64,000 nt of DNA from Odiellus spinosus (taxonomy: Eukaryota > Arthropoda > Arachnida > Opiliones > Phalangiidae): contig CAWUCO010000232.1 in the NCBI GenBank assembly GCA_963920705.1, positions 248,001-312,000 on the forward strand, read 5' to 3'. The position numbers and the translations under genes are program-made. A model generated the notes under the pieces. The model made no database searches, had not been told where the DNA came from, and worked only from the letters and a program-made list of their open reading frames with translations. This document shows positions 1 through 32,935 of this stretch, one piece after another. Within the stretch, counting starts at the first letter, position 1; every line of letters begins with the position of its first letter.

Positions 1-106
1 GAATTGGCCATATTTTTCTTGTTTTTCAACGGATTTTTGAAAACTCTTGTTATTTAGACTGTCAATTAATTGCTCTTTCGAATGACTTTGGTTTTGTCTA
101 AATTGC
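1..106 (+). repeat. Left arm of intra-monomer inverted repeat
   Basis: This 106-bp arm aligns without gaps to the reverse complement of 205-310, with 18 mismatches by hand count (about 83% identity). Fully matching blocks are at arm positions 21-37 (17 bp), 40-51, 70-81 and 92-103 (12 bp each). Mismatches cluster at 82-91. The same arm pair recurs in every monomer. The arms are much less alike than neighbouring monomers are, so the inversion predates the present homogenised array. An origin from a fold-back or MITE-like element is possible, but no terminal target duplication or transposase was seen. Confidence 0.93.
76..92 (+). other. CENP-B-box-like motif (partial match, one per monomer)
   Basis: TTTCGAATGACTTTGGT fits the mammalian CENP-B box pattern NTTCGNNNNANNCGGGN at seven of nine core positions: TTCG, the central A and the last GG. 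TTGG replaces CGGG. The motif recurs once per monomer at the same place. About 29 of 167 copies have TTCTAATGAC instead of TTCGAATGAC, losing the CpG, and 18 of these lie among the 33 monomers of zone A. A 7/9 match in one 383-bp unit is suggestive only. Degenerate matches arise by chance, and CENP-B-like proteins outside mammals have poorly known sites. Confidence 0.3.
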
Positions 107-204
107 AAAATTGTGACAAATAAAAAATTGGTTAAAATAAAGCAAAAACACTTAAAAATCCAAGATTAATGGATTAAAATGGACACAAAACTTTTGATTT
201 TTAA
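107..204 (+). repeat. Central segment between the inverted arms
   Basis: This A+T-rich 98-bp stretch lies between the arms. It shows little self-complementarity on the arm axis (155.5), so it is either a true spacer or half-unit sequence diverged beyond recognition by eye. It holds two small dyads of its own. A 10-bp perfect pair, CTTAAAAATC at 151-160 and GATTTTTAAG at 196-205, overlaps the first base of the right arm. A 6-bp pair, AATCCA at 157-162 and TGGATT at 170-175, is nested inside it. The zone B marker (CTTTTGATTTTT to CTTTTCATTTTT) falls within the GATTTTTAAG arm and removes one base pair of the 10-bp dyad. Confidence 0.85.
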
Positions 205-205
205 G
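151..205. repeat. Short nested inverted repeats in the central segment
   Basis: CTTAAAAATC (151-160) is the exact reverse complement of GATTTTTAAG (196-205). Inside it, AATCCA (157-162) pairs with TGGATT (170-175) across a 7-base loop. Both recur in nearly every monomer. In 23 copies of zone B the first G of GATTTTTAAG is C. Such A+T-rich dyads are common in satellites and have no assigned role here. Confidence 0.8.
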
Positions 206-310
206 CGATTTAGACAAAATTAAGACTACTCGAAAGAGCAAATATTGGTCTATCTAAAAAACAAGAGTTTTGGAAAATCCGTTGAAAAACATGGAAAATA
301 TGGACAATTC
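205..310 (-). repeat. Right arm of intra-monomer inverted repeat
   Basis: This is the inverted partner of 1-106, starting GCGATTTAGACAAAATTAAG and ending GGACAATTC. It also pairs with the left arm of the next monomer (384-489) around a second axis at about 347, so the array alternates half-units head-to-head and tail-to-tail. Several zone markers lie here: ACTACTCGAAAGAG versus ACCACTCGAAAGGG versus ACCACTCGAAAGAG, CTAAAAAACAAG versus CTGAAAATCAAG, and GATTTAGAC versus GATTTAAAC versus GATTTTGAC. Confidence 0.93.
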
Positions 311-383
311 AAAAAACATCTAATATCAAAAAGCGAATTTTTAAAATCTGAAATTTGACTATTTTGATATTGTATGATTTCTT
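311..383. repeat. Monomer junction segment with weak dyad
   Basis: These 73 bases join one right arm to the next left arm. Comparing the segment with its own reverse complement, shifted by one base, gives about 23 of 36 matching pairs. That includes a perfect 10-bp pair, AATATCAAAA at 322-331 and TTTTGATATT at 362-371. Its axis (about 346.5) nearly coincides with the axis between flanking arms (347), so the palindrome continues through the junction, giving arms of roughly 142 bp each. Zone markers here are AAAAAACATC versus AAAAAGCATC and GAATTTTTAAAATC versus GAATTTTGAAAATC. Confidence 0.8.
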
Positions 384-2680
384 GAATTGGCCATATTTTT
401 CTTGTTTTTCAACGGATTTTTGAAAACTCTTGTTATTTAGACTGTCCATTAATTGCTCTTTCTAATGACTTTGGTTTTGTCTAAATTGCAAAATTGTGAC
501 AAATATAAAATTGGTTAAAATAAAGCAAAAACACTTAAAAATCCAAGATTATTGGATTCAAATGGACACAAAACTTTTGATTTTTAAGCGATTTAGACAA
601 AATTAAGACCACTCGAAAGGGCAAATATTGGTCTATCTAAAAAACAAGAGTTTTGGAAAATCCGTTGAAAAACATGGAAAATATGGACAATTCAAAAAAC
701 ATCTAATATCAAAAAGCGAATTTTTAAAATCTGAAATTTGACTATTTTGATATTGTATGATTTCTTGAATTGGCCATATTTTTCTTGTTTTTCAACGGAT
801 TTTTGAAAACTCTTGTTATTTAGACTGTCCATTAATTGCTCTTTCTAATGACTTTGGTTTTGTCTAAATTGCAAAATTGTGACAAATATAAAATTGGTTA
901 AAATAAAGCAAAAACAATTAAAAATCCAAGATTATTGGATTCAAATGGACACAAAACTTTTGATTTTTAAGCGATTTAGACAAAATTAAGACTACTCGAA
1001 AGAGCAAATATTGGTCTATCTAAAAAACAAGAGTTTTGGAAAATCCGTTGAAAAACATGGAAAATATGGACAATTCAAAAAACATCTAATATCAAAAAGC
1101 GAATTTTTAAAATCTGAAATTTGACTATTTTGATATTGTATGATTTCTTGAATTGGCCATATTTTTCTTGTTTTTCAACGGATTTTTGAAAACTCTTGTT
1201 ATTTAGACTGTCCATTAATTGCTCTTTCTAATGACTTTGGTTTTGTCTAAATTGCAAAATTGTGACAAATATAAAATTGGTTAAAATAAAGCAAAAACAC
1301 TTAAAAATCCAAGATTATTGGATTCAAATGGACACAAAACTTTTGATTTTTAAGCGATTTAGACAAAATTAAGACCACTCGAAAGGGCAAATATTGGTCT
1401 ATCTAAAAAACAAGAGTTTTGGAAAATCCGTTGAAAAACATGGAAAATATGGACAATTCAAAAAACATCTAATATCAAAAAGCGAATTTTTAAAATCTGA
1501 AATTTGACTATTTTGATATTGTATGATTTCTTGAATTGGCCATATTTTTCTTGTTTTTCAACGGATTTTTGAAAACTCTTGTTATTTAGACTGTCAATTA
1601 ATTGCTCTTTCGAATGACTTTGGTTTTGTCTAAATTGCAAAATTGTGACAAATAAAAAATTGGTTAAAATAAAGCAAAAACACTTAAAAATCCAAGATTA
1701 ATGGATTAAAATGGACACAAAACTTTTGATTTTTAAGCGATTTAGACAAAATTAAGACTACTCGAAAGAGCAAATATTGGTCTATCTAAAAAACAAGAGT
1801 TTTGGAAAATCCGTTGAAAAACATGGAAAATATGGACAATTCAAAAAACATCTAATATCAAAAAGCGAATTTTTAAAATCTGAAATTTGACTATTTTGAT
1901 ATTGTATGATTTCTTGAATTGGCCATATTTTTCTTGTTTTTCAACGGATTTTTGAAAACTCTTGTTATTTAGACTGTCCATTAATTGCTCTTTCGAATGA
2001 CTTTGGTTTTGTCTAAATTGCAAAATTGTGACAAATAAAAAATTGGTTAAATAAAGCAAAAACACTTAAAAATCCAAGATTAATGGATTAAAATGGACAA
2101 AAAACTTTAGATTTTTAAGCGATTTAGACAAAATTAAGACTACTCGAAAGAGCAAATATTGGTCTATCTAAAAAACAAGAGTTTTGGAAAATCCGTTGAA
2201 AAACATGGAAAATATGGACAATTCAAAAAACATCTAATATCAAAAAGCGAATTTTTAAAATCTGAAATTTGACTATTTTGATATTGTATGATTTCTTGAA
2301 TTGGCCATATTTTTCTTGTTTTTCAACGGATTTTTGAAAACTCTTGTTATTTAGACTGTCCATTAATTGCTCTTTCGAATGACTTTGGTTTTGTCTAAAT
2401 TGCAAAATTGTGACAAATATATAATTGGTTAAAATAAAGCAAAAACACTTAAAAATCCAAGATTATTGGATTCAAATGGACGCAAAACTTTTGATTTTTA
2501 AGCGATTTAGACAAAATTAAGACTACTCGAAAGAGCAAATATTGGTCTATCTAAAAAACAAGAGTTTTGGAAAATCCGTTGAAAAACATGGAAAATATGG
2601 ACAATTCAAAAAACATCTAATATCAAAAAGCGAATTTTTAAAATCTGAAATTTGACTATTTTGATATTGTATGATTTCTT

Positions 2681-5600
2681 GAATTGGCCATATTTTTCTT
2701 GTTTTTCAACGGATTTTTGAAAACTCTTGTTATTTAGACTGTCCATTAATTGCTCTTTCTAATGACTTTGGTTTTGTCTAAATTGCAAAATTGTGACAAA
2801 TATAAAATTGGTTAAAATAAAGCAAAAACACTTAAAAATCCAAGATTATTGGATTCAAATGGACACAAAACTTTTGATTTTTAAGCGATTTAGACAAAAT
2901 TAAGACTACTCGAAAGAGCAAATATTGGTCTATCTAAAAAACAAGAGTTTTGGAAAATCCGTTGAAAAACATGGAAAATATGGACAATTCAAAAAACATC
3001 TAATATCAAAAAGCGAATTTTTAAAATCTGAAATTTGACTATTTTGATATTGTATGATTTCTTGAATTGGCCATATTTTTCTTGTTTTTCAACGGATTTT
3101 TGAAAACTCTTGTTATTTAGACTGTCCATTAATTGCTCTTTCTAATGACTTTGGTTTTGTCTAAATTGCAAAATTGTGACAAATATAAAATTGGTTAAAA
3201 TAAAGCAAAAACACTTAAAAATCCAAGATTATTGGATTCAAATGGACACAAAACTTTTGATTTTTAAGCGATTTAGACAAAATTAAGACCACTCGAAAGG
3301 GCAAATATTGGTCTATCTAAAAAACAAGAGTTTTGGAAAATCCGTTGAAAAACATGGAAAATATGGACAATTCAAAAAACATCTAATATCAAAAAGCGAA
3401 TTTTTAAAATCTGAAATTTGACTATTTTGATATTGTATGATTTCTTGAATTGGTCATATTTTTCTTGTTTTTCAACGGATTTTTGAAAACTCTTGTTATT
3501 TAGACTGTCCATTAATTGCTCTTTCTAATGACTTTGGTTTTGTCTAAATTGCAAAATTGTGACAAATATAAAATTGGTTAAAATAAAGCAAAAACACTTA
3601 AAAATCCAAGATTATTGGATTCAAATGGACACAAAACTTTTGATTTTTAAGCGATTTAGACAAAATTAAGACTACTCGAAAGAGCAAATATTGGTCTATC
3701 TAAAAAACAAGAGTTTTGGAAAATCCGTTGAAAAACATGGAAAATATGGACAATTCAAAAAACATCTAATATCAAAAAGCGAATTTTTAAAATCTGAAAT
3801 TTGACTATTTTGATATTGTATGATTTCTTGAATTGGCCATATTTTTCTTGTTTTTCAACGGATTTTTGAAAACTCTTGTTATTTAGACTGTCCATTAATT
3901 GCTCTTTCTAATGACTTTGGTTTTGTCTAAATTGCAAAATTGTGACAAATATAAAATTGGTTAAAATAAAGCAAAAACACTTAAAAATCCAAGATTATTG
4001 GATTCAAATGGACACAAAACTTTTGATTTTTAAGCGATTTAGACAAAATTAAGACCACTCGAAAGGGCAAATATTGGTCTATCTAAAAAACAAGAGTTTT
4101 GGAAAATCCGTTGAAAAACATGGAAAATATGGACAATTCAAAAAACATCTAATATCAAAAAGCGAATTTTTAAAATCTGAAATTTGACTATTTTGATATT
4201 GTATGATTTCTTGAATTGGCCATATTTTTCTTGTTTTTCAACGGATTTTTGAAAACTCTTGTTATTTAGACTGTCCATTAATTGCTCTTTCTAATGACTT
4301 TGGTTTTGTCTAAATTGCAAAATTGTGACAAATATAAAATTGGTTAAAATAAAGCAAAAACACTTAAAAATCCAAGATTATTGGATTCAAATGGACACAA
4401 AACTTTTGATTTTTAAGCGATTTAGACAAAATTAAGACTACTCGAAAGAGCAAAAATTGGTCTATCTAAAAAACAAGAGTTTTGGAAAATCCGTTGAAAA
4501 ACATGGAAAATATGGACAATTCAAAAAACATCTAATATCAAAAAGCGAATTTTTAAAATCTGAAATTTGACTATTTTGATATTGTATGATTTCTTGAATT
4601 GGCCATATTTTTCTTGTTTTTCAACGGATTTTTGAAAACTCTTGTTATTTAGACTGTCCATTAATTGCTCTTTCTAATGACTTTGGTTTTGTCTAAATTG
4701 CAAAATTGTGACAAATATAAAATTGGTTAAAATAAAGCAAAAACACTTAAAAATCCAAGATTATTGGATTCAAATGGACACAAAACTTTTGATTTTTAAG
4801 CGATTTAGACAAAATTAAGACCACTCGAAAGGGCAAATATTGGTCTATCTAAAAAACAAGAGTTTTGGAAAATCCGTTGAAAAACATGGAAAATATGGAC
4901 AATTCAAAAAACATCTAATATCAAAAAGCGAATTTTTAAAATCTGAAATTTGACTATTTTGATATTGTATGATTTCTTGAATTGGCCATATTTTTCTTGT
5001 TTTTCAACGGATTTTTGAAAACTCTTGTTATTTAGACTGTCCATTAATTGCTCTTTCTAATGACTTTGGTTTTGTCTAAATTGCAAAATTGTGACAAATA
5101 TAAAATTGGTTAAAATAAAGCAAAAACACTTAAAAATCCAAGATTATTGGATTCAAATGGACACAAAACTTTTGATTTTTAAGCGATTTAGACAAAATTA
5201 AGACTACTCGAAAGAGCAAAAATTGGTCTATCTAAAAAACAAGAGTTTTGGAAAATCCGTTGAAAAACATGGAAAATATGGACAATTCAAAAAACATCTA
5301 ATATCAAAAAGCGAATTTTTAAAATCTGAAATTTGACTATTTTGATATTGTATGATTTCTTGAATTGGCCATATTTTTCTTGTTTTTCAACGGATTTTTG
5401 AAAACTCTTGTTATTTAGACTGTCCATTAATTGCTCTTTCTAATGACTTTGGTTTTGTCTAAATTGCAAAATTGTGACAAATATAAAATTGGTTAAAATA
5501 AAGCAAAAACACTTAAAAATCCAAGATTATTGGATTCAAATGGACACAAAACTTTTGATTTTTAAGCGATTTAGACAAAATTAAGACCACTCGAAAGGGC

Positions 5601-5744
5601 AAATATTGGTCTATCTAAAAAACAAGAGTTTTGGAAAATCCGTTGAAAAACATGGAAAATATGGACAATTCAAAAAACATCTAATATCAAAAAGCGAATT
5701 TTTAAAATCTGAAATTTGACTATTTTGATATTGTATGATTTCTT
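2681..5744 (+). repeat. Dimeric higher-order repeat, four 766-bp units
   Basis: Eight successive monomers alternate strictly between ACTACTCGAAAGAG and ACCACTCGAAAGGG in the right arm, giving a 766-bp period. The last two dimers also share GAGCAAAAATTGG (near 4448 and 5214) in place of GAGCAAATATTGG, exactly 766 bases apart. All eight have the TTCTAATGAC left arm. A one-off change, TTGGTCAT, is seen in the copy starting at 3447. Confidence 0.85.
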
Positions 5745-6510
5745 GAATTGGCCATATTTTTCTTGTTTTTCAACGGATTTTTGAAAACTCTTGTTATTTA
5801 GACTGTCAATTAATTGCTCTTTCGAATGACTTTGGTTTTGTCTAAATTGCAAAATTGTGACAAATAAAAAATTGGTTAAAATAAAGCAAAAACACTTAAA
5901 AATCCAAGATTATTGGATTCAAATGGACACAAAACTTTTGATTTTTAAGCGATTTAGACAAAATTAAGACCACTCGAAAGGGCAAATATTGGTCTATCTA
6001 AAAAACAAGAGTTTTGGAAAATCCGTTGAAAAACATGGAAAATATGGACAATTCAAAAAACATCTAATATCAAAAAGCGAATTTTTAAAATCTGAAATTT
6101 GACTATTTTGATATTGTATGATTTCTTGAATTGGCCATATTTTTCTTGTTTTTCAACGGATTTTTGAAAACTCTTGTTATTTAGACTGTCAATTAATTGC
6201 TCTTTCGAATGACTTTGGTTTTGTCTAAATTGCAAAATTGTGACAAATATAAAATTGGTTAAAATAAAGCAAAAACACTTAAAAATCCAAGATTATTGGA
6301 TTAAAATGGACACAAAACTTTTGATTTTTAAGCGATTTAGACAAAATTAAGACTACTCGAAAGAGCAAATATTGGTCTATCTAAAAAACAAGAGTTTTGG
6401 AAAATCCGTTGAAAAACATGGAAAATATGGAAAATTCAAAAAACATCTAATATCAAAAAGCGAATTTTTAAAATCTGAAATTTGACTATTTTGATATTGT
6501 ATGATTTCTT

Positions 6511-7661
6511 GAATTGGCCATATTTTTCTTGTTTTTCAACGGATTTTTGAAAACTCTTGTTATTTAGACTGTCCATTAATTGCTCTTTCGAATGACTTTG
6601 GTTTTGTCTAAATTGCAAAATTGTGACAAATATAAAATTGGTTAAAATAAAGCAAAAACACTTAAAAATCCAAGATTATTGGATTCAAATGGACACAAAA
6701 CTTTTGATTTTTAAGCGATTTAGACAAAATTAAGACTACTCGAAAGAGCAAATATTGGTCTATCTAAAAAAACAAGAGTTTTGGAAAATCCGTTGAAAAA
6801 CATGGAAAATATGGACAATTCAAAAAAAAACTAATATCAAAAAGCGAATTTTTAAAATCTGAAATTTGACTATTTTGATATTGTATGATTTCTTGAATTG
6901 GCCATATTTTTCTTGTTTTTCAACGGATTTTTGAAAACTCTTGTTATTTAGACTGTCCATTAATTGCTCTTTCTAATGACTTTGGTTTTGTCTAAATTGC
7001 AAAATTGTGACAAATATAAAATTGGTTAAAATAAAGCAAAAACACTTAAAAATCCAAGATTATTGGATTCAAATGGACACAAAACTTTTGATTTTTAAGC
7101 GATTTAGACAAAATTAAGACCACTCGAAAGGGCAAATATTGGTCTATCTAAAAAACAAGAGTTTTGGAAAATCCGTTGAAAAACATGGAAAATATGGACA
7201 ATTCAAAAAACATCTAATATCAAAAAGCGAATTTTTAAAATCTGAAATTTGACTATTTTGATATTGTATGATTTCTTGAATTGGCCATATTTTTCTTGTT
7301 TTTCAACGGATTTTTGAAAACTCTTGTTATTTAGACTGTCCATTAATTGCTCTTTCGAATGACTTTGGTTTTGTCTAAATTGCAAAATTGTGACAAATAT
7401 AAAATTGGTTAAAAATAAAGCAAAAACACTTAAAAATCCAAGATTATTGGATTCAAATGGACACAAAACTTTTGATTTTTAAGCGATTTAGACAAAATTA
7501 ACACTACTCGAAAGAGCAAATATTGGTCTATCTAAAAAACAAGAGTTTTGGAAAATCCGTTGAAAAACATGGAAAATATGGACAATTCAAAAAAAAACTA
7601 ATATCAAAAAGCGAATTTTTAAAATCAGAAATTTGACTATTTTGATATTGTATGATTTCTT
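6511..7661 (+). repeat. Local two-monomer duplication with altered junction
   Basis: Copies starting at 6511 and 7278 both have the junction variant TTCAAAAAAAAACTAATATC, with the usual CAT after the A-run replaced by AAA, about 770 bases apart. Each also carries an independent single-base insertion in an A-run (near 6770 and 7412). The second copy has TTAACACTACTC and AAATCAGAAA as private changes. The simplest reading is a dimer duplication followed by a few new mutations. Confidence 0.7.
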
Positions 7662-8044
7662 GAATTGGCCATATTTTTCTTGTTTTTCAACGGATTTTTG
7701 AAAACTCTTGTTATTTAGACTGTCCATTAATTGCTCTTTCTAATGACTTTGGTTTTGTCTAAATTGCAAAATTGTGACAAATATAAAATTGGTTAAAATA
7801 AAGCAAAAACACTTAAAAATCCAAGATTATTGGATTCAAATGGACACAAAACTTTTGATTTTTAAGCGATTTAGACAAAATTAAGACCACTCGAAAGGGC
7901 AAATATTGGTCTATCTAAAAAACAAGAGTTTTGGAAAATCCGTTGAAAAACATGGAAAATATGGACAATTCAAAAAACATCTAATATCAAAAAGCGAATT
8001 TTTAAAATCTGAAATTTGACTATTTTGATATTGTATGATTTCTT

Positions 8045-11000
8045 GAATTGGCCATATTTTTCTTGTTTTTCAACGGATTTTTGAAAACTCTTCTTATTTA
8101 GACTGTCAATTAATTGCTCTTTCGAATGACTTTGGTTTTGTCTAAATTGCAAAATTGTGACAAATATAAAATTGGTTAAAATAAAGCAAAAACACTTAAA
8201 AATCCAAGATTATTGGATTAAAATGGACACAAAACTTTTGATTTTTAAGTGATTTAGACAAAATTAAGACTACTCGAAAGAGCAAATATTGGTCTATCTA
8301 AAAAACAAGAGTTTTGGAAAATCCGTTGAAAAACATGGAAAATATGGACAATTCAAAAAACATCTAATATCAAAAAGCGAATTTTTAAAATCTGAAATTT
8401 GACTATTTTGATATTGTATGATTTCTTGAATTGGCCATATTTTTCTTGTTTTTCAACGGATTTTTGAAAACTCTTGTTATTTAGACTGTCCATTAATTGC
8501 TCTTTCGAATGACTTTGGTTTTGTCTAAATTGCAAAATTGTGACAAATATAAAATTGGTTAAAATAAAGCAAAAACACTTAAAAATCCAAGATTATTGGA
8601 TTCAAATGGACACAAAACTTTTGATTTTTAAGCGATTTAGACAAAATTAAGACTACTCGAAAGAGCAAATATTGGTCTATCTAAAAAACAAGAGTTTTGG
8701 AAAATCCGTTGAAAAACATGGAAAATATGGACAATTCAAAAAACATCTAATATCAAAAAGCGAATTTTTAAAATCTGAAATTTGACTATTTTGATATTGT
8801 ATGATTTCTTGAATTGGCCATATTTTTCTTGTTTTTCAACGGATTTTTGAAAACTCTTGTTATTTAGACTGTCCATTAATTGCTCTTTCTAATGACTTTG
8901 GTTTTGTCTAAATTGCAAAATTGTGACAAATATAAAATTGGTTAAAATAAAGCAAAAACACTTAAAAATCCAAGATTATTGGATTCAAATGGACACAAAA
9001 CTTTTGATTTTTAAGCGATTTAGACAAAATTAAGACCACTCGAAAGGGCAAATATTGGTCTATCTAAAAAACAAGAGTTTTGGAAAATCCGTTGAAAAAC
9101 ATGGAAAATATGGACAATTCAAAAAACATCTAATATCAAAAAGCGAATTTTTAAAATCTGAAATTTGACTATTTTGATATTGTATGATTTCTTGAATTGG
9201 CCATATTTTTCTTGTTTTTCAACGGATTTTTGAAAACTCTTGTTATTTAGACTGTCCATTAATTGCTCTTTCTAATGACTTTGGTTTTGTCTAAATTGCA
9301 AAATTGTGACAAATATAAAATTGGTTAAAATAAAGCAAAAACACTTAAAAATCCAAGATTATTGGATTCAAATGGACACAAAACTTTTGATTTTTAAGCG
9401 ATTTAGACAAAATTAAGACCACTCGAAAGGGCAAATATTGGTCTATCTAAAAAACAAGAGTTTTGGAAAATCCGTTGAAAAACATGGAAAATATGGACAA
9501 TTCAAAAAACATCTAATATCAAAAAGCGAATTTTTAAAATCTGAAATTTGACTATTTTGATATTGTATGATTTCTTGAATTGGCCATATTTTTCTTGTTT
9601 TTCAACGGATTTTTGAAAACTCTTGTTATTTAGACTGTCAATTAATTGCTCTTTCGAATGACTTTGGTTTTGTCTAAATTGCAAAATTGTGACAAATATA
9701 AAATTGGTTAAAATAAAGCAAAAACACTTAAAAATCCAAGATTATTGGATTAAAATGGACACAAAACTTTTGATTTTTAAGCGATTTAGACAAAATTAAG
9801 ACTACTCGAAAGAGCAAATATTGGTCTATCTAAAAAACAAGAGTTTTGGAAAATCCAGTTGAAAAACATGGAAAATATGGACAATTCAAAAAACATCTAA
9901 TATCAAAAAGCGAATTTTTAAAATCTGAAATTTGACTATTTTGATATTGTATGATTTCTTGAATTGGCCATATTTTTCTTGTTTTTCAACGGATTTTTGA
10001 AAACTCTTGTTATTTAGACTGTCCATTAATTGCTCTTTCGAATGACTTTGGTTTTGTCTAAATTGCAAAATTGTGACAAATATAAAATTGGTTAAAATAA
10101 AGCAAAAACACTTAAAAATCCAAGATTATTGGATTCAAATGGACACAAAACTTTTGATTTTTAAGCGATTTAGACAAAATTAAGACTACTCGAAAGAGCA
10201 AATATTGGTCTATCTAAAAAACAAGAGTTTTGGAAAATCCGTTGAAAAACATGGAAAATATGGACAATTCAAAAAACATCTAATATCAAAAAGCGAATTT
10301 TTAAAATCTGAAATTTGACTATTTTGATATTGTATGATTTCTTGAATTGGCCATATTTTTCTTGTTTTTCAACGGATTTTTGAAAACTCTTGTTATTTAG
10401 ACTGTCCATTAATTGCTCTTTCGAATGACTTTGGTTTTGTCTAAATTGCAAAATTGTGACAAATATAAAATTGGTTAAAATAAAGCAAAAACACTTAAAA
10501 ATCCAAGATTATTGGATTCAAATGGACACAAAACTTTTGATTTTTAAGCGATTTAGACAAAATTAAGACTACTCGAAAGAGCAAATATTGGTCTATCTAA
10601 AAAACAAGAGTTTTGGAAAATCCGTTGAAAAACATGGAAAATATGGACAATTCAAAAAACATCTAATATCAAAAAGCGAATTTTTAAAATCTGAAATTTG
10701 ACTATTTTGATATTGTATGATTTCTTGAATTGGCCATATTTTTCTTGTTTTTCAACGGATTTTTGAAAACTCTTGTTATTTAGACTGTCCATTAATTGCT
10801 CTTTCTAATGACTTTGGTTTTGTCTAAATTGCAAAATTGTGACAAATATAAAATTGGTTAAAATAAAGCAAAAACACTTAAAAATCCAAGATTATTGGAT
10901 TCAAATGGACACAAAACTTTTGATTTTTAAGCGATTTAGACAAAATTAAGACCACTCGAAAGGGCAAATATTGGTCTATCTAAAAAACAAGAGTTTTGGA

Positions 11001-12641
11001 AAATCCGTTGAAAAACATGGAAAATATGGACAATTCAAAAAACATCTAATATCAAAAAGCGAATTTTTAAAATCTGAAATTTGACTATTTTGATATTGTA
11101 TGATTTCTTGAATTGGCCATATTTTTCTTGTTTTTCAACGGATTTTTGAAAACTCTTGTTATTTAGACTGTCAATTAATTGCTCTTTCGAATGACTTTGG
11201 TTTTGTCTAAATTGCAAAATTGTGACAAATATAAAATTGGTTAAAATAAAGCAAAAACACTTAAAAATCCAAGATTATTGGATTAAAATGGACACAAAAC
11301 TTTTGATTTTTAAGCGATTTAGACAAAATTAAGACTACTCGAAAGAGCAAATATTGGTCTATCTAAAAAACAAGAGTTTTGGAAAATCCGTTGAAAAACA
11401 TGGAAAATATGGACAATTCAAAAAACATATAATATCAAAAAGCGAATTTTTAAAATCTGAAATTTGACTATTTTGATATTGTATGATTTCTTGAATTGGC
11501 CATATTTTTCTTGTTTTTCAACGGATTTTTGAAAACTCTTGTTATTTAGACTGTCCATTAATTGCTCTTTCGAATGACTTTGGTTTTGTCTAAATTGCAA
11601 AATTGTGACAAATATAAAATTGGTTAAAATAAAGCAAAAACACTTAAAAATCCAAGATTATTGGATTCAAATGGACACAAAACTTTTGATTTTTAAGCGA
11701 TTTAGACAAAATTAAGACTACTCGAAAGAGCAAATATTGGTCTATCTAAAAAACAAGAGTTTTGGAAAATCCGTTGAAAAACATGGAAAATATGGACAAT
11801 TCAAAAAACATCTAATATCAAAAAGCGAATTTTTAAAATCTGAAATTTGACTATTTTGATATTGTATGATTTCTTGAATTGGCCATATTTTTCTTGTTTT
11901 TCAACGGATTTTTGAAAACTCTTGTTATTTAGACTGTCCATTAATTGCTCTTTCTAATGACTTTGGTTTTGTCTAAATTGCAAAATTGTGACAAATATAA
12001 AATTGGTTAAAATAAAGCAAAAACACTTAAAAATCCAAGATTATTGGATTCAAATGGACACAAAACTTTTGATTTTTAAGCGATTTAGACAAAATTAAGA
12101 CTACTCGAAAGAGCAAATATTGGTCTATCTAAAAAACAAGAGTTTTGGAAAATCCGTTGAAAAACATGGAAAATATGGACAATTCAAAAAACATCTAATA
12201 TCAAAAAGCGAATTTTTAAAATCTGAAATTTGACTATTTTGATATTGTATGAATTCTTGAATTGGCCATATTTTTCTTGTTTTTCAACGGATTTTTGAAA
12301 ACTCTTGATATTTAGACTGTCCATTAATTGCTCTTTCTAATGACTTTGGTTTTGTCTAAATTGCAAAATTGTGACAAATATAAAATTGGTTAAAATAAAG
12401 CAAAAACACTTAAAAATCCAAGATTATTGGATTCAAATGGACACAAAACTTTTGATTTTTAAGCGATTTAGACAAAATTAAGACCACTCGAAAGGGCAAA
12501 TATTGGTCTATCTAAAAAACAAGAGTTTTGGAAAATCCGTTGAAAAACATGGAAAATATGGACAATTCAAAAAACATCTAATATCAAAAAGCGAATTTTT
12601 AAAATCTGAAATTTGACTATTTTGATATTGTATGATTTCTT
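8045..12641 (+). repeat. Tetrameric higher-order repeat, three units of about 1532 bp
   Basis: Copies with GTCAATT plus GGATTAAAATGG recur at 8045, 9577 and 11110, that is every four monomers. Each is followed by a TTCGAATGAC/GTCCATT copy, and the unit closes with TTCTAATGAC copies. The units are not identical: the third member is TTCT type in units one and three but TTCG type in unit two. A one-base insertion near 9857 makes unit two 1533 bp. Confidence 0.75.
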
Positions 12642-15600
12642 GAATTGGCCATATTTTTCTTGTTTTTCAACGGATTTTTGAAAACTCTTGTTATTTAGAC
12701 TGTCCATTAATTGCTCTTTCGAATGACTTTGGTTTTGTCTAAATTGCAAAATTGTGACAAATATAAAATTGGTTAAAATAAAGCAAAAACACTTAAAAAT
12801 CCAAGATTATTGGATTCAAATGGACACAAAACTTTTCATTTTTAAGCGATTTAGACAAAATTAAGACTACTCGAAAGAGCAAATATTGGTCTATCTAAAA
12901 AACAAGAGTTTTGGAAAATCCGTTGAAAAACATGGAAAATATGGACAATTCAAAAAACATCTAATATCAAAAAGCGAATTTTTAAAATCTGAAATTTGAC
13001 TATTTTGATATTGTATGATTTCTTGAATTGGCCATATTTTTCTTGTTTTTCAACGGATTTTTGAAAACTCTTGTTATTTAGACTGTCCATTAATTGCTCT
13101 TTCGAATGACTTTGGTTTTGTCTAAATTGCAAAATTGTGACAAATATAAAATTGGTTAAAATAAAGCAAAAACACTTAAAAATCCAAGATTATTGGATTC
13201 AAATGGACACAAAACTTTTGATTTTTAAGCGATTTAGACAAAATTAAGACCACTCGAAAGAGCAAATATTGGTCTATCTAAAAAACAAGAGTTTTGGAAA
13301 ATCCGTTGAAAAACATGGAAAATATGGACAATTCAAAAAACATCTAATATCAAAAAGCGAATTTTTAAAATCTGAAATTTGACTATTTTGATATTGTATG
13401 ATTTCTTGAATTGGCCATATTTTTCTTGTTTTTCAACGGATTTTTGAAAACTCTTGTTATTTAGACTGTCCATTAATTGCTCTTTCGAATGACTTTGGTT
13501 TTGTCTAAATTGCAAAATTGTGACAAATATAAAATTGGTTAAAATAAAGCAAAAACACTTAAAAATCCAAGATTATTGGATTCAAATGGACACAAAACTT
13601 TTCATTTTTAAGCGATTTAGACAAAATTAAGACTACTCGAAAGAGCAAATATTGGTCTATCTAAAAAACAAGAGTTTTGGAAAATCCGTTGAAAAACATG
13701 GAAAATATGGACAATTCAAAAAACATCTAATATCAAAAAGCGAATTTTTAAAATCTGAAATTTGACTATTTTGATATTGTATGATTTCTTGAATTGGCCA
13801 TATTTTTCTTGTTTTTCAACGGATTTTTGAAAACTCTTGTTATTTAGACTGTCCATTAATTGCTCTTTCGAATGACTTTGGTTTTGTCTAAATTGCAAAA
13901 TTGTGACAAATATAAAATTGGTTAAAATAAAGCAAAAACACTTAAAAATCCAAGATTATTGGATTCAAATGGACACAAAACTTTTCATTTTTAAGCGATT
14001 TAGACAAAATTAAGACTACTCGAAAGAGCAAATATTGGTCTATCTAAAAAACAAGAGTTTTGGAAAATCCGTTGAAAAACATGGAAAATATGGACAATTC
14101 AAAAAACATCTAATATCAAAAAGCGAATTTTTAAAATCTGAAATTTGACTATTTTGATATTGTATGATTTCTTGAATTGGCCATATTTTTCTTGTTTTTC
14201 AACGGATTTTTGAAAACTCTTGTTATTTAGACTGTCCATTAATTGCTCTTTCGAATGACTTTGGTTTTGTCTAAATTGCAAAATTGTGACAAATATAAAA
14301 TTGGTTAAAATAAAGCAAAAACACTTAAAAATCCAAGATTATTGGATTCAAATGGACACAAAACTTTTCATTTTTAAGCGATTTAGACAAAATTAAGACT
14401 ACTCGAAAGAGCAAATATTGGTCTATCTAAAAAACAAGAGTTTTGGAAAATCCGTTGAAAAACATGGAAAATATGGACAATTCAAAAAACATCTAATATC
14501 AAAAAGCGAATTTTTAAAATCTGAAATTTGACTATTTTGATATTGTATGATTTCTTGAATTGGCCATATTTTTCTTGTTTTTCAACGGATTTTTGAAAAC
14601 TCTTGTTATTTAGACTGTCCATTAATTGCTCTTTCGAATGACTTTGGTTTTGTCTAAATTGCAAAATTGTGACAAATATAAAATTGGTTAAAATAAAGCA
14701 AAAACACTTAAAAATCCAAGATTATTGGATTCAAATGGACACAAAACTTTTCATTTTTAAGCGATTTAGACAAAATTAAGACTACTCGAAAGAGCAAATA
14801 TTGGTCTATCTAAAAAACAAGAGTTTTGGAAAATCCGTTGAAAAACATGGAAAATATGGACAATTCAAAAAACATCTAATATCAAAAAGCGAATTTTTAA
14901 AATCTGAAATTTGACTATTTTGATATTGTATGATTTCTTGAATTGGCCATATTTTTCTTGTTTTTCAACGGATTTTTGAAAACTCTTGTTATTTAGACTG
15001 TCCATTAATTGCTCTTTCGAATGACTTTGGTTTTGTCTAAATTGCAAAATTGTGACAAATATAAAATTGGTTAAAATAAAGCAAAAACACTTAAAAATCC
15101 AAGATTATTGGATTCAAATGGACACAAAACTTTTCATTTTTAAGCGATTTAGACAAAATTAAGACTACTCGAAAGAGCAAATATTGGTCTATCTAAAAAA
15201 CAAGAGTTTTGGAAAATCCGTTGAAAAACATGGAAAATATGGACAATTCAAAAAACATCTAATATCAAAAAGCGAATTTTTAAAATCTGAAATTTGACTA
15301 TTTTGATATTGTATGATTTCTTGAATTGGCCATATTTTTCTTGTTTTTCAACGGATTTTTGAAAACTCTTGTTATTTAGACTGTCCATTAATTGCTCTTT
15401 CGAATGACTTTGGTTTTGTCTAAATTGCAAAATTGTGACAAATATAAAATTGGTTAAAATAAAGCAAAAACACTTAAAAATCCAAGATTATTGGATTCAA
15501 ATGGACACAAAACTTTTCATTTTTAAGCGATTTAGACAAAATTAAGACTACTCGAAAGAGCAAATATTGGTCTATCTAAAAAACAAGAGTTTTGGAAAAT

Positions 15601-18600
15601 CCGTTGAAAAACATGGAAAATATGGACAATTCAAAAAACATCTAATATCAAAAAGCGAATTTTTAAAATCTGAAATTTGACTATTTTGATATTGTATGAT
15701 TTCTTGAATTGGCCATATTTTTCTTGTTTTTCAACGGATTTTTGAAAACTCTTGTTATTTAGACTGTCCATTAATTGCTCTTTCGAATGACTTTGGTTTT
15801 GTCTAAATTGCAAAATTGTGACAAATATAAAATTGGTTAAAATAAAGCAAAAACACTTAAAAATCCAAGATTATTGGATTCAAATGGACACAAAACTTTT
15901 GATTTTTAAGCGATTTAGACAAAATTAAGACTACTCGAAAGAGCAAATATTGGTCTATCTAAAAAACAAGAGTTTTGGAAAATCCGTTGAAAAACATGGA
16001 AAATATGGACAATTCAAAAAACATCTAATATCAAAAAGCGAATTTTTAAAATCTGAAATTTGACTATTTTGATATTGTATGATTTCTTGAATTGGCCATA
16101 TTTTTCTTGTTTTTCAACGGATTTTTGAAAACTCTTGTTATTTAGACTGTCCATTAATTGCTCTTTCGAATGACTTTGGTTTTGTCTAAATTGCAAAATT
16201 GTGACAAATATAAAATTGGTTAAAATAAAGCAAAAACACTTAAAAATCCAAGATTATTGGATTCAAATGGACACAAAACTTTTCATTTTTAAGCGATTTA
16301 GACAAAATTAAGACTACTCGAAAGAGCAAATATTGGTCTATCTAAAAAACAAGAGTTTTGGAAAATCCGTTGAAAAACATGGAAAATAAGGACAATTCAA
16401 AAAACATCTAATATCAAAAAGCGAATTTTTAAAATCTGAAATTTGACTATTTTGATATTGTATGATTTCTTGAATTGGCCATATTTTTCTTGTTTTTCAA
16501 CGGATTTTTGAAAACTCTTGTTATTTAGACTGTCCATTAATTGCTCTTTCGAATGACTTTGGTTTTGTCTAAATTGCAAAATTGTGACAAATATAAAATT
16601 GGTTAAAATAAAGCAAAAACACTTAAAAATCCAAGATTATTGGATTCAAATGGACACAAAACTTTTGATTTTTAAGCGATTTAGACAAAATTAAGACCAC
16701 TCGAAAGAGCAAATATTGGTCTATCTAAAAAACAAGAGTTTTGGAAAATCCGTTGAAAAACATGGAAAATATGGACAATTCAAAAAACATCTAATATCAA
16801 AAAGCGAATTTTTAAAATCTGAAATTTGACTATTTTGATATTGTATGATTTCTTGAATTGGCCATATTTTTCTTGTTTTTCAACGGATTTTTGAAAACTC
16901 TTGTTATTTAGACTGTCCATTAATTGCTCTTTCGAATGACTTTGGTTTTGTCTAAATTGCAAAATTGTGACAAATATAAAATTGGTTAAAATAAAGCAAA
17001 AACACTTAAAAATCCAAGATTATTGGATTCAAATGGACACAAAACTTTTCATTTTTAAGCGATTTAGACAAAATTAAGACTACTCGAAAGAGCAAATATT
17101 GGTCTATCTAAAAAACAAGAGTTTTGGAAAATCCGTTGAAAAACATGGAAAATATGGACAATTCAAAAAACATCTAATATCAAAAAGCGAATTTTTAAAA
17201 TCTGAAATTTGACTATTTTGATATTGTATGATTTCTTGAATTGGCCATATTTTTCTTGTTTTTCAACGGATTTTTGAAAACTCTTGTTATTTAGACTGTC
17301 CATTAATTGCTCTTTCGAATGACTTTGGTTTTGTCTAAATTGCAAAATTGTGACAAATATAAAATTGGTTAAAATAAAGCAAAAACACTTAAAAATCCAA
17401 GATTATTGGATTCAAATGGACACAAAACTTTTCATTTTTAAGCGATTTAGACAAAATTAAGACTACTCGAAAGAGCAAATATTGGTCTATCTAAAAAACA
17501 AGAGTTTTGGAAAATCCGTTGAAAAACATGGAAAATATGGACAATTCAAAAAACATCTAATATCAAAAAGCGAATTTTTAAAATCTGAAATTTGACTATT
17601 TTGATATTGTATGATTTCTTGAATTGGCCATATTTTTCTTGTTTTTCAACGGATTTTTGAAAACTCTTGTTATTTAGACTGTCCATTAATTGCTCTTTCG
17701 AATGACTTTGGTTTTGTCTAAATTGCAAAATTGTGACAAATATAAAATTGGTTAAAATAAAGCAAAAACACTTAAAAATCCAAGATTATTGGATTCAAAT
17801 GGACACAAAACTTTTCATTTTTAAGCGATTTAGACAAAATTAAGACTACTCGAAAGAGCAAATATTGGTCTATCTAAAAAACAAGAGTTTTGGAAAATCC
17901 GTTGAAAAACATGGAAAATATGGACAATTCAAAAAACATCTAATATCAAAAAGCGAATTTTTAAAATCTGAAATTTGACTATTTTGATATTGTATGATTT
18001 CTTGAATTGGCCATATTTTTCTTGTTTTTCAACGGATTTTTGAAAACTCTTGTTATTTAGACTGTCCATTAATTGCTCTTTCGAATGACTTTGGTTTTGT
18101 CTAAATTGCAAAATTGTGACAAATATAAAATTGGTTAAAATAAAGCAAAAACACTTAAAAATCCAAGATTATTGGATTCAAATGGACACAAAACTTTTCA
18201 TTTTTAAGCGATTTAGACAAAATTAAGACTACTCGAAAGAGCAAATATTGGTCTATCTAAAAAACAAGAGTTTTGGAAAATCCGTTGAAAAACATGGAAA
18301 ATATGGACAATTCAAAAAACATCTAATATCAAAAAGCGAATTTTTAAAATCTGAAATTTGACTATTTTGATATTGTATGATTTCTTGAATTGGCCATATT
18401 TTTCTTGTTTTTCAACGGATTTTTGAAAACTCTTGTTATTTAGACTGTCCATTAATTGCTCTTTCGAATGACTTTGGTTTTGTCTAAATTGCAAAATTGT
18501 GACAAATATAAAATTGGTTAAAATAAAGCAAAAACACTTAAAAATCCAAGATTATTGGATTCAAATGGACACAAAACTTTTCATTTTTAAGCGATTTAGA

Positions 18601-19199
18601 CAAAATTAAGACTACTCGAAAGAGCAAATATTGGTCTATCTAAAAAACAAGAGTTTTGGAAAATCCGTTGAAAAACATGGAAAATATGGACAATTCAAAA
18701 AACATCTAATATCAAAAAGCGAATTTTTAAAATCTGAAATTTGACTATTTTGATATTGTATGATTTCTTGAATTGGCCATATTTTTCTTGTTTTTCAACG
18801 GATTTTTGAAAACTCTTGTTATTTAGACTGTCCATTAATTGCTCTTTCGAATGACTTTGGTTTTGTCTAAATTGCAAAATTGTGACAAATATAAAATTGG
18901 TTAAAATAAAGCAAAAACACTTAAAAATCCAAGATTATTGGATTCAAATGGACACAAAACTTTTCATTTTTAAGCGATTTAGACAAAATTAAGACAACTC
19001 GAAAGAGCAAATATTGGTCTATCTAAAAAACAAGAGTTTTGGAAAATCCGTTGAAAAACATGGAAAATATGGACAATTCAAAAAACATCTAATATCAAAA
19101 AGCGAATTTTTAAAATCTGAAATTTGACTATTTTGATATTGTATGATTTCTTGAATTGGCCATATTTTTCTTGTTTTTCAACGGATTTTTGAAAACTCT

Positions 19200-22100
19200 T
19201 GTTATTTAGACTGTCCATTAATTGCTCTTTCGAATGACTTTGGTTTTGTCTAAATTGCAAAATTGTGACAAATATAAAATTGGTTAAAATAAAGCAAAAA
19301 CACTTAAAAATCCAAGATTATTGGATTCAAATGGACACAAAACTTTTCATTTTTAAGCGATTTAGACAAAATTAAGACTACTCTAAAGAGCAAATATTGG
19401 TCTATCTAAAAAACAAGAGTTTTGGAAAATCCGTTGAAAAACATGGAAAATATGGACAATTCAAAAAACATCTAATATCAAAAAGCGAATTTTTAAAATC
19501 TGAAATTTGACTATTTTGATATTGTATGATTTCTTGAATTGGCCATATTTTTCTTGTTTTTCAACGGATTTTTGAAAAACTCTTGTTATTTAGACTGTCC
19601 ATTAATTGCTCTTTCGAATGACTTTGGTTTTGTCTAAATTGCAAAATTGTGACAAATATAAAATTGGTTAAAATAAAGCAAAAACACTTAAAAATCCAAG
19701 ATTATTGGATTCAAATGGACACAAAACTTTTCATTTTTAAGCGATTTAGACAAAATTAAGACTACTCGAAAGAGCAAATATTGGTCTATCTAAAAAACAA
19801 GAGTTTTGGAAAATCCGTTGAAAAACATGGAAAATATGGACAATTCAAAAAACATCTAATATCAAAAAGCGAATTTTTAAAATCTGAAATTTGACTATTT
19901 TGATATTGTATGATTTCTTGAATTGGCCATATTTTTCTTGTTTTTCAACGGATTTTTGAAAACTCTTGTTATTTAGACTGTCCATTAATTGCTCTTTCTA
20001 ATGACTTTGGTTTTGTCTAAATTGCAAAATTGTGACAAATATAAAATTGGTTAAAATAAAGCAAAAACACTTAAAAATCCAAGATTATTGGATTCAAATG
20101 GACACAAAACTTTTGATTTTTAAGCGATTTAGACAAAATTAAGACCACTCGAAAGAGCAAATATTGGTCTATCTAAAAAACAAGAGTTTTGGAAAATCCG
20201 TTGAAAAACATGGAAAATATGGACAATTCAAAAAACATCTAATATCAAAAAGCGAATTTTTAAAATCTGAAATTTGACTATTTTGATATTGTATGATTTC
20301 TTGAATTGGCCATATTTTTCTTGTTTTTCAACGGATTTTTGAAAACTCTTCTTATTTAGACTGTCCATTAATTGCTCTTTCGAATGACTTTGGTTTTGTC
20401 TAAATTGCAAAATTGTGACAAATATAAAATTGGTTAAAATAAAGCAAAAACACTTAAAAATCCAAGATTATTGGATTCAAATGGACACAAAACTTTTCAT
20501 TTTTAAGCGATTTAGACAAAATTAAGACTACTCGAAAGAGCAAATATTGGTCTATCTAAAAAACAAGAGTTTTGGAAAATCCGTTGAAAAACATGGAAAA
20601 TATGGACAATTCAAAAAACATCTAATATCAAAAAGCGAATTTTTAAAATCTGAAATTTGACTATTTTGATATTGTATGATTTCTTGAATTGGCCATATTT
20701 TTCTTGTTTTTCAACGGATTTTTGAAAACTCTTGTTATTTAGACTGTCCATTAATTGCTCTTTCGAATGACTTTGGTTTTGTCTAAATTGCAAAATTGTG
20801 ACAAATATAAAATTGGTTAAAATAAAGCAAAAACACTTAAAAATCCAAGATTATTGGATTCAAATGGACACAAAACTTTTCATTTTTAAGCGATTAAACA
20901 AAATTAAGACTACTCGAAAGAGCAAATATTGGTCTATCTAAAAAACAAGAGTTTTGGAAAATCCGTTGAAAAACATGGAAAATATGGACAATTCAAAAAA
21001 CATCTAATATCAAAAAGCGAATTTTTAAAATCTGAAATTTGACTATTTTGATATTGTATGATTTCTTGAATTGGCCATATTTTTCTTGTTTTTCAACGGA
21101 TTTTTGAAAACTCTTGTTATTTAGACTGTCCATTAATTGCTCTTTCTAATGACTTTGGTTTTGTCTAAATTGCAAAATTGTGACAAATATAAAATTGGTT
21201 AAAATAAAGCAAAAACACTTAAAAATCCAAGATTATTGGATTCAAATGGACACAAAACTTTTGATTTTTAAGCGATTTAGACAAAATTAAGACTACTCGA
21301 AAGAGCAAATATTGGTCTATCTAAAAAACAAGAGTTTTGGAAAATCCGTTGAAAAACATGGAAAATATGGACAATTCAAAAAACATCTAATATCAAAAAG
21401 CGAATTTTTAAAATCTGAAATTTGACTATTTTGATATTGTATGATTTCTTGAATTGGCCATATTTTTCTTGTTTTTCAACGGATTTTTGAAAACTCTTGT
21501 TATTTAGACTGTCCATTAATTGCTCTTTCGAATGACTTTGGTTTTGTCTAAATTGCAAAATTGTGACAAATATAAAATTGGTTAAAATAAAGCAAAAACA
21601 CTTAAAAATCCAAGATTATTGGATTCAAATGGACACAAAACTTTTCATTTTTAAGCGATTTAGACAAAATTAAGACTACTCTAAAGAGCAAATATTGGTC
21701 TATCTAAAAAACAAGAGTTTTGGAAAATCCGTTGAAAAACATGGAAAATATGGACAATTCAAAAAACATCTAATATCAAAAAGCGAATTTTTAAAATCTG
21801 AAATTTGACTATTTTGATATTGTATGATTTCTTGAATTGGCCATATTTTTCTTGTTTTTCAACGGATTTTTGAAAAACTCTTGTTATTTAGACTGTCCAT
21901 TAATTGCTCTTTCGAATGACTTTGGTTTTGTCTAAATTGCAAAATTGTGACAAATATAAAATTGGTTAAAATAAAGCAAAAACACTTAAAAATCCAAGAT
22001 TATTGGATTCAAATGGACACAAAACTTTTCATTTTTAAGCGATTTAGACAAAATTAAGACTACTCGAAAGAGCAAATATTGGTCTATCTAAAAAACAAGA

Positions 22101-28139: not shown

Positions 28140-30560
28140 TGGACACAAAACTTTTGATTTTTAAGCGATTTTGACAAAATTAAGACCACTCGAAAGAGCA
28201 ATTATTGGTCTATCTAAAAAACAAGAGTTTTGGAAAATCCGTTGAAAAACATGGAAATTATGGACAATTCAAAAAGCATCTAATATCAAAAAGCGAATTT
28301 TTAAAATCTGAAATTTGACTATTTTGATATTGTATGATTTCTTGAATTGGCCATATTTTTCTTGTTTTTCAACGGAATTTTGAAAACTCTTGTTATTTAA
28401 ACTGTCCATTAATTGCTCTTTCGAATGACTTTTTTTTGTCTAAATTGCAAAATTGTGTCAAATATAAAATTGGTTAAAATTAAGCAAAAACGCTTAAAAA
28501 TCCAAGATTATAGGATTCAAATGGACACAAAACTTTTGATTTTTAAGCGATTTAGACAAAATTAAGACCACTCGAAAGAGCAAATATTGGTCTATCTGAA
28601 AATCAAGAGTTTTGGAAAATCCGTTGAAAAACATGGAAAATATGGACAATTCAAAAAGCATCTAATATCAAAAAGCGAATTTTGAAAATCTGAAATTTGA
28701 CTATTTTGATATTCTATGATTTCTTGAATTGGCCATATTTTTCTTGTTTTTCAACGGATTTTTGAAAACTCTTGTTATTTAGACTGTCCATTAATTGCTC
28801 TTTCGAATGACTTTGGTTTTGTCTAAATTGCAAAATTCTGACAAATATAAAATTGGTTAAAATAAAGCAAAAACACTTAAAAATCCAAGATTATTGGATT
28901 AAAATGGACACAAAACTTTTGATTTTTAAGCGATTTAGACAAAATTAAGACCACTCGAAAGAGCAAATATTGGTCTATCTGAAAATCAAGAGTTTTGGAA
29001 AATCCGTTAAAAAACATGGAAAATATGGACAATTCAAAAAACATCTAATATCAAAAAGCGAATTTTGAAAATCTGAAATTTGACTATTTTGATATTGTAT
29101 GATTTCTTGAATTGGCCATATTTTTCTTGTTTTTCAACGGATTTTTGAAAACTCTTGTTATTTAGACTGTCCATTAATTGCTCTTTCGAATGACTTTTGT
29201 TTTGTCTAAATTGCAAAATTGTGACAAATATAAAATTGGTTAAAATAAAGCAAAAACACTTAAAAATCCAAGATTATTGGATTAAAATGGACACAAAACT
29301 TTTGATTTTTAAGCGATTTTGACAAAATTAAGACCACTCGAAAGAGCAATTATTGGTCTATCTAAAAAACAAGAATTTTGGAAAATCCGTTGAAAAACAT
29401 GGAAAATATGGACAATTCAAAAAGCATCTAATATCAAAAAGCGAATTTTTAAAATCTGAAATTTGACTATTTTGATATTGTATGATTTCTTGAATTGGCC
29501 ATATTTTTCTTGTTTTTCAACGGATTTTTGAAAACTCTTGTTATTTAAACTGTCCATTAATTGCTCTTTCGAATGACTTTTTTTTGTCTAAATTGCAAAA
29601 TTGTGTCAAATATAAAATTGGTTAAAATTAAGCAAAAACGCTTAAAAATCCAAGATTATAGGATTCAAATGGACACAAAACTTTTGATTTTTAAGCGATT
29701 TAGACAAAATTAAGACCACTCGAAAGAGCAAATATTGGTCTATCTGAAAATCAAGAGTTTTGGAAAATCCGTTGAAAAACATGGAAAATATGGACAATTC
29801 AAAAAGCATCTAATATCAAAAAGCGAATTTTGAAAATCTGAAATTTGACTATTTTGATATTCTATGATTTCTTGAATTGGCCATATTTTTCTTGTTTTTC
29901 AACGGATTTTTGAAAACTCTTGTTATTTAGACTGTCCATTAATTGCTCTTTCGAATGACTTTGGTTTTGTCTAAATTGCAAAATTCTGACAAATATAAAA
30001 TTGGTTAAAATAAAGCAAAAACACTTAAAAATCCAAGATTATTGGATTAAAATGGACACAAAACTTTTGATTTTTAAGCGATTTAGACAAAATTAAGACC
30101 ACTCGAAAGAGCAAATATTGGTCTATCTGAAAATCAAGAGTTTTGGAAAATCCGTTAAAAAACATGGAAAATATGGACAATTCAAAAAACATCTAATATC
30201 AAAAAGCGAATTTTGAAAATCTGAAATTTGACTATTTTGATATTGTATGATTTCTTGAATTGGCCATATTTTTCTTGTTTTTCAACGGATTTTTGAAAAC
30301 TCTTGTTATTTAGACTGTCCATTAATTGCTCTTTCGAATGACTTTTGTTTTGTCTAAATTGCAAAATTGTGACAAATATAAAATTGGTTAAAATAAAGCA
30401 AAAACACTTAAAAATCCAAGATTATTGGATTAAAATGGACACAAAACTTTTGATTTTTAAGCGATTTTGACAAAATTAAGACCACTCGAAAGAGCAATTA
30501 TTGGTCTATCTAAAAAACAAGAATTTTGGAAAATCCGTTGAAAAACATGGAAAATATGGA
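28140..30560 (+). repeat. Three-monomer (1148-bp) tandem duplication
   Basis: Markers recur 1148 bases apart: the shortened GACTTTTTTTTGTC (near 28427 and 29575), TTGTGTCAAATA, AAAACGCTTAAAA, GATTATAGGATT, TTCTATGATTTC (28711 and 29859), AATTCTGACAAA (28835 and 29983) and GTTAAAAAACATGG (29008 and 30156). The shared one-base deletion explains 1148 instead of 1149. CAAGAATTTTGG occurs at 29371 and 30519 but not one unit earlier. Confidence 0.9.
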
Positions 30561-32890: not shown

Positions 32891-32935
32891 TTTGAAAATC
32901 TGAAATTTGACTATTTTGATATTTTATGATTTCTT

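Follow-up and report, generated by a model that had tools for sequence, protein, structure and literature searches.

A 64-kb array of 383-bp satellite-type monomers, each composed of a 285-bp imperfect palindrome and 98 non-mirrored base pairs

The window analysed here, a stretch of 64,000 nt, is occupied throughout by a single tandem array (1-64000, forward strand) of about 167 copies of a 383-bp monomer, as delineated by TRF (one row, 167.1 copies, 98% matches) and by monomer anchors. The anchors mark 168 monomer starts on the forward strand and 167 complete monomers tiling positions 1-63958, with spacings of 383 bp in 150 cases, 382 bp in ten and 384 bp in seven. A consensus was built from the 150 monomers of exactly 383 bp, which match it with a mean identity of 99.2% (minimum 97.4%), corresponding to a mean divergence of 0.8%. 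The sequence is AT-rich, with a GC content of 26-27% across the window. Neither an interruption nor a change of orientation was seen within the 64 kb, and both ends of the array lie outside the window. No tRNA gene and no closed open reading frame of at least 100 aa (standard code) was found in the window, and no Rfam match reached the gathering threshold in positions 1-20000. A comparison of positions 384-1532 with Rfam at an E-value cut-off of 1 yielded six matches, all to miRNA-precursor families; the best two, to MIR8562 (E 3.6e-5 and 4.9e-5; 38.6 and 38.0 bits), lie far under the gathering score of 211 and were read, without a control, as generic long-hairpin matches. The long head-to-tail arrangement of homogeneous, non-coding monomers is that of satellite DNA, and this kind of sequence suggests an AT-rich satellite array of eukaryotic type and hence a eukaryotic origin. 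Assembly errors may affect parts of an array of this kind.

Each monomer carries two long arms in inverse orientation. The left arm (arm A, 1-106, forward strand) pairs without gaps with the right arm (arm B, 205-310, reverse strand), and a repeat finder returned the same arms at 81%. When the monomer anchor was sought on the reverse strand, it matched 167 times, always at offset 288-290 of a monomer, which is arm B. An earlier note on this DNA, made from the letters alone, had described ungapped inverse arms of about 83% identity, and this description is borne out by a complementarity of 81.1% in monomer 1 and 83.0% in the consensus, where 18 pairs are mismatched. Across all 167 complete monomers, arm identity averages 81.5% (range 77.4-84.0%). 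The right arm also pairs with the left arm of the following monomer, as the note had stated (205-310 against 384-489, 81.1%). In the comparison with shuffled sequence that had been set beforehand as the refuting test, the arms stood far above the control: among 1000 dinucleotide shuffles of the consensus, the best 106-bp arm at any axis and position averaged 52.7% and never exceeded 62.3%. The axes 155.5 and 347 were likewise the best of the 383 cyclic axes, with an overall symmetry of 62.7%, and the runner-up, half a base away, reached 40.7%. The monomer thus holds a pair of long inverted subunits whose similarity is well beyond chance expectation, in the manner of the Tribolium brevicornis satellite, with 83% identity over 106 bp and an extension into a longer palindrome of 285 bp. 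The two arms differ in variability among the repeats: over consensus columns, substitutions are about twice as frequent in arm B (205-310; 1.28%) as in arm A (1-106; 0.55%), and six columns of arm B, vs two of arm A, carry minor variants at more than 5%.

Between the arms lie two spacers, one of 98 bp within the monomer (107-204) and one of 73 bp that leads to the next monomer (311-383). To assess each for mirror symmetry, its two halves were aligned inwards from the arm boundaries (the anchored test), and global and local scores were computed as well. The 73-bp spacer proved to be a diverged palindromic centre with an axis at about 346.5 and small indels, for which the repeat finder gave arms at 313-331 and 362-380. 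In the first scheme its anchored score reached 25, whereas shuffles averaged 4.6, and none of 400 shuffles did as well in any of three schemes; its global half-to-half score was reached by four of 5000 dinucleotide and eight of 10000 mononucleotide shuffles, and the unanchored local test was weaker (p 0.0185, 2000 shuffles). The 98-bp spacer, in contrast, has its inverse symmetry at chance by every score, with p 0.26, 0.56 and 1.0 in the anchored schemes, 0.69 for the global and 0.45 for the local score; 8599 of 10000 mononucleotide shuffles equalled or bettered it, and the arm alignment does not extend into it. A match between 145-163 and 193-211, within or near this spacer, was set aside, as its axis falls at 178 rather than 155.5 and gapped symmetry is at chance (p 0.45). 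The difference between the spacers holds in every one of the 167 complete monomers, with half-to-half scores of 9 to 13 for 311-383 and of -10 to -6 for 107-204.

Arm B, the 73-bp spacer and the next monomer's arm A thus form one imperfect palindrome of 285 bp (205-489 in the window), in which 114 of 140 aligned pairs of the consensus are identical (81%), with three gaps of 1, 1 and 2 nt. In 12-bp bins of the consensus, identity amounts to 50%, 75% and 67% at the centre (axis 346.5). Of the arm bins (axis 347), eight have 67-100% and the ninth 58%; beyond the arms identity drops to 25-50%. The centre is therefore the most diverged part on average. The 383-bp unit consists of a 285-bp imperfect palindrome and 98 non-mirrored bp, and the inverted subunit that can be demonstrated in it measures about 142 bp instead of 191.5 bp.

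The arms differ by far more than the repeats do. Since all 167 complete monomers have arms at 77-84% while the monomers themselves diverge by 0.8%, the inversion is older than the homogenisation of the array, and an inverted duplication probably came first and amplification of the array later. Variants that restore an arm pair account for 15 cells vs 284 that break one, a cell being one column in one of the 167 monomers. Monomers at lags of 1-8 differ in 4.4-5.2 columns vs 5.9-6.3 at lags of 50-60, and when monomer order was shuffled 500 times, the mean was about 5.86 columns (sd about 0.12; lags 1, 2, 3, 5 and 8). Near monomers are thus more alike than distant ones, which fits local duplication. 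Compared over consensus columns, 91 distinct monomers occur among the 167. No array-wide higher-order unit was found at lags 1-60, where weak dips at 3, 5 and 8 and local blocks were seen.

Several stretches of the array have a character of their own. At about 13025-18769 (monomers 34-48, numbering from 0), series of as many as six successive identical monomers recur 1-11 monomers away, as in a recently duplicated block. The interval at about 28344-32935 (monomers 74-85, from 0) is rich in variants; successive groups of monomers recur there in a local 3- and 5-monomer pattern, monomers 74-76, 77-79 and 82-84 (from 0) have linked variants in common, and the exact arm motif is missing from arm B all through the block. 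Consensus columns 256 and 261 are perfectly linked, varying in the same 27 of the 167 monomers, whose starts run from 26812 to 62810, with none earlier in the window.

How the palindrome came to lie within the monomer can be read in more than one way. The earlier note took each monomer for two half-units, each about 191.5 bp long and inverted relative to one another, and argued, from axes lying exactly half a monomer apart, that a half-length ancestor had inverted and then been amplified as a dimer. The spacing was given correctly; however, it arises automatically wherever an inverted repeat is tandemly arrayed. If the period is P, mirror symmetry about an axis a entails mirror symmetry about a + P/2, as reflection is combined with translation by P, and the axes 155.5 and 347 are two views of a single inverted repeat rather than independent evidence for a half-length ancestor. 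Being a geometric necessity, the half-period spacing is silent on such an ancestor, and it was rejected as a tautology; the case illustrates that it is unusable as evidence for inverted-dimer origin. The half-units themselves exceed the data, because ungapped symmetry about these axes outside the arms is only 37-39%. A complete dimer of a 191.5-bp repeat, inverted head to head and amplified whole, needs both spacers mirrored about the axes. The arms are mirrored and the spacer 311-383 still recognisably so, as such an origin would predict, but 107-204 has no inverse similarity by any of the three scores and the arm alignment stops short of it. Nor does direct similarity within the consensus point to a half-length repeat: at lags 190 and 191 it is 30.3% and 25.1%, no higher than the mean of 30.4% (sd 3.1%, 191 lags), and lag 188, at 36.6%, is only about 2 sd up and fifth best of the 191. 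Lag 188 mildly suggests some near-half periodicity and was not taken as evidence; shorter direct periodicities, near 40 bp (38%) and 78-79 bp (37%; mean 30%, sd 3%), are weak among 191 lags. The 98-bp spacer could be the strongly diverged or replaced second spacer of a 191.5-bp dimer, but we consider it unlikely that a full dimer was amplified and its spacers have since diverged beyond recognition. Of the earlier proposal, the data support the inverted duplication inside the monomer, probably amplified later as a whole unit, but not the half-length ancestor. A second possibility is that the palindrome is what is left of a foldback element or miniature inverted-repeat transposon (MITE) from which a satellite arose by tandem repetition. 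MITEs are typically short, AT-rich units with long inverted repeats. Reviews have connected MITEs with satellite DNA (PMC5615363, PMC4107277). However, the target-site duplication that such an element leaves at the ends of its inverted repeats was found at neither candidate pair of ends: within 3 nt of them, the longest direct repeat is 2 nt for 205-489, and there is none for 1-310. Old elements may have lost such a duplication, and the lack of a closed open reading frame of at least 100 aa, although it too fails to favour a transposon, is expected of a MITE. On balance, derivation from a transposon appears doubtful.

A different question is whether the dyad is maintained for a function, with cruciforms of the 285-bp palindrome positioning centromeric nucleosomes or recruiting kinetochore chromatin and the satellite being kept for it. 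Single-strand DNA folding predicts strong structures for 205-489 (-81.9 kcal/mol, z -17.7), 1-310 (-75.9 kcal/mol, z -14.2) and the whole monomer (-84.2 kcal/mol, z -12.9), and dyad symmetry has been proposed to be important in (peri)centromeric satellites of Tribolium (PMC13081366), which by analogy would favour such a role. These folds follow from the palindrome itself, however, and do not imply formation in cells. The repeats, moreover, permit a direct look at pairing. Distinct substitutions in the arms number 84, of which 69 disrupt a pair, four restore one and 11 exchange mismatches; this follows the transition-corrected expectation without constraint (69.7, 5.1 and 9.2, respectively), and a pair-keeping double change occurs at one column pair only (80/231), in two of 167 monomers. 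Because the substitutions match the unconstrained expectation, selection on the hairpin is not detectable, and neither is conversion between the arms, in the recent history of the array, a test to which 84 variants lend little power. The centre, where a cruciform would nucleate, is also the part that has diverged most on average. A function of the dyad in centromeric chromatin is accordingly improbable, and still less probable is the proposal that a palindrome every 383 bp provides regular cruciform-forming sites that help to specify a centromere, independently of the Tribolium cases. A CENP-B-box-like motif, used without a control, matched the consensus four times with 2-3 mismatches (best at position 76) and is not claimed.

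The explanation that we favour, and regard as likely when taken as a whole, is that of a satellite derived from an inverted duplication of about 142 bp together with a 98-bp neighbour. A segment of about 142 bp would have been duplicated once in inverted orientation, giving the 285-bp palindrome that is present today; this palindrome has diverged to about 81% self-complementarity, most at its centre on average. Together with the adjoining 98-bp non-mirrored segment, it would have become the 383-bp unit, which was then presumably amplified, its copies being kept alike through local duplication and unequal exchange, consistent with the observed homogeneity and the decay of similarity with distance. 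Such an array would most likely serve as ordinary constitutive heterochromatin, possibly at a (peri)centromeric or subtelomeric site. The potential to form hairpins or cruciforms would be a by-product of this origin that may matter physically, selection for it being undetectable here.

Searches for relatives covered sequence collections and paper texts. Five short strings from the window were found in no paper text searched, and blastn of 384-1149 against plasmids and phages gave no relatives. One 32-base arm pattern had no exact match in GTDB contigs or IMG/VR. All of these collections are plasmid, prokaryotic or viral, so that the lack of matches does not bear on eukaryotic relatives. Six IMG/VR contigs share an 18-mer with the repeat; the longest blastn alignments of the consensus to them, in L002 and L004, covered 37 bp at 89% identity (E 1.2e-7 in this tiny pre-selected set), and the contigs were taken as chance matches. 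The recognition site of KpnI, GGTACC, occurs 0 times in the 64 kb of the window. A subtelomeric satellite of hop (Humulus lupulus), HSR1, has the identical monomer length of 383 bp and was isolated as a KpnI repeat (PMC12406709); as the window contains no KpnI site, the array is probably not HSR1, from which it is set apart by description, not sequence. The main text of that paper contains neither the word 'inverted' nor 'palindrom'. Among the literature listings and passages covered, mostly from open-access main texts, no satellite of 383 bp with inverted arms came up.

Satellites with inverted subunits are known, from Tribolium among others, and the earlier note called them uncommon. A 2026 study of Tribolium madens considers long dyads inside a satellite monomer "not so common" (PMC13081366). 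A further example, with 167 complete monomers in a single array, is therefore useful, and that number of copies allows the conservation of hairpin pairing to be tested directly among repeats; here, pairing is not detectably conserved. The closest precedents appear to be satellites of T. brevicornis, T. madens and Trichogramma brassicae, compared by description rather than sequence, and a review mentions further insects with predicted dyads or cruciforms in their satellites (PMC8122249). The major satellite of T. brevicornis has a monomer of 1061 bp with inverted segments of about 470 bp (Mravinac et al., 2005, as cited in PMC13081366). Like the present unit, it is founded on long inverted segments that, by arithmetic, take up less than the monomer, although that monomer is much longer (1061 vs 383 bp). 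The T. brassicae satellite measures 385 bp and has 80-bp inverted repeats (Landais et al., 2000, as cited in PMC13081366); the present monomer of 383 bp with 106-bp arms resembles it by description only, and the closeness in length is a lead only. TmSat2 of T. madens, a 704-bp satellite with an imperfect palindrome of about 600 bp and a predicted strong fold (PMC13081366), likewise holds a large palindrome inside its monomer. Its monomer, however, comprises seven subunits (59-113 bp) that are related to one another, and its arrays switch orientation to form macro-dyads (PMC13081366), whereas the monomers here tile 1-63958 in one orientation, and a switch of the Tribolium type could lie outside the window. 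By analogy with these descriptions, the architecture is one already known from a few insect satellites, and the present array is a further case of the same kind.
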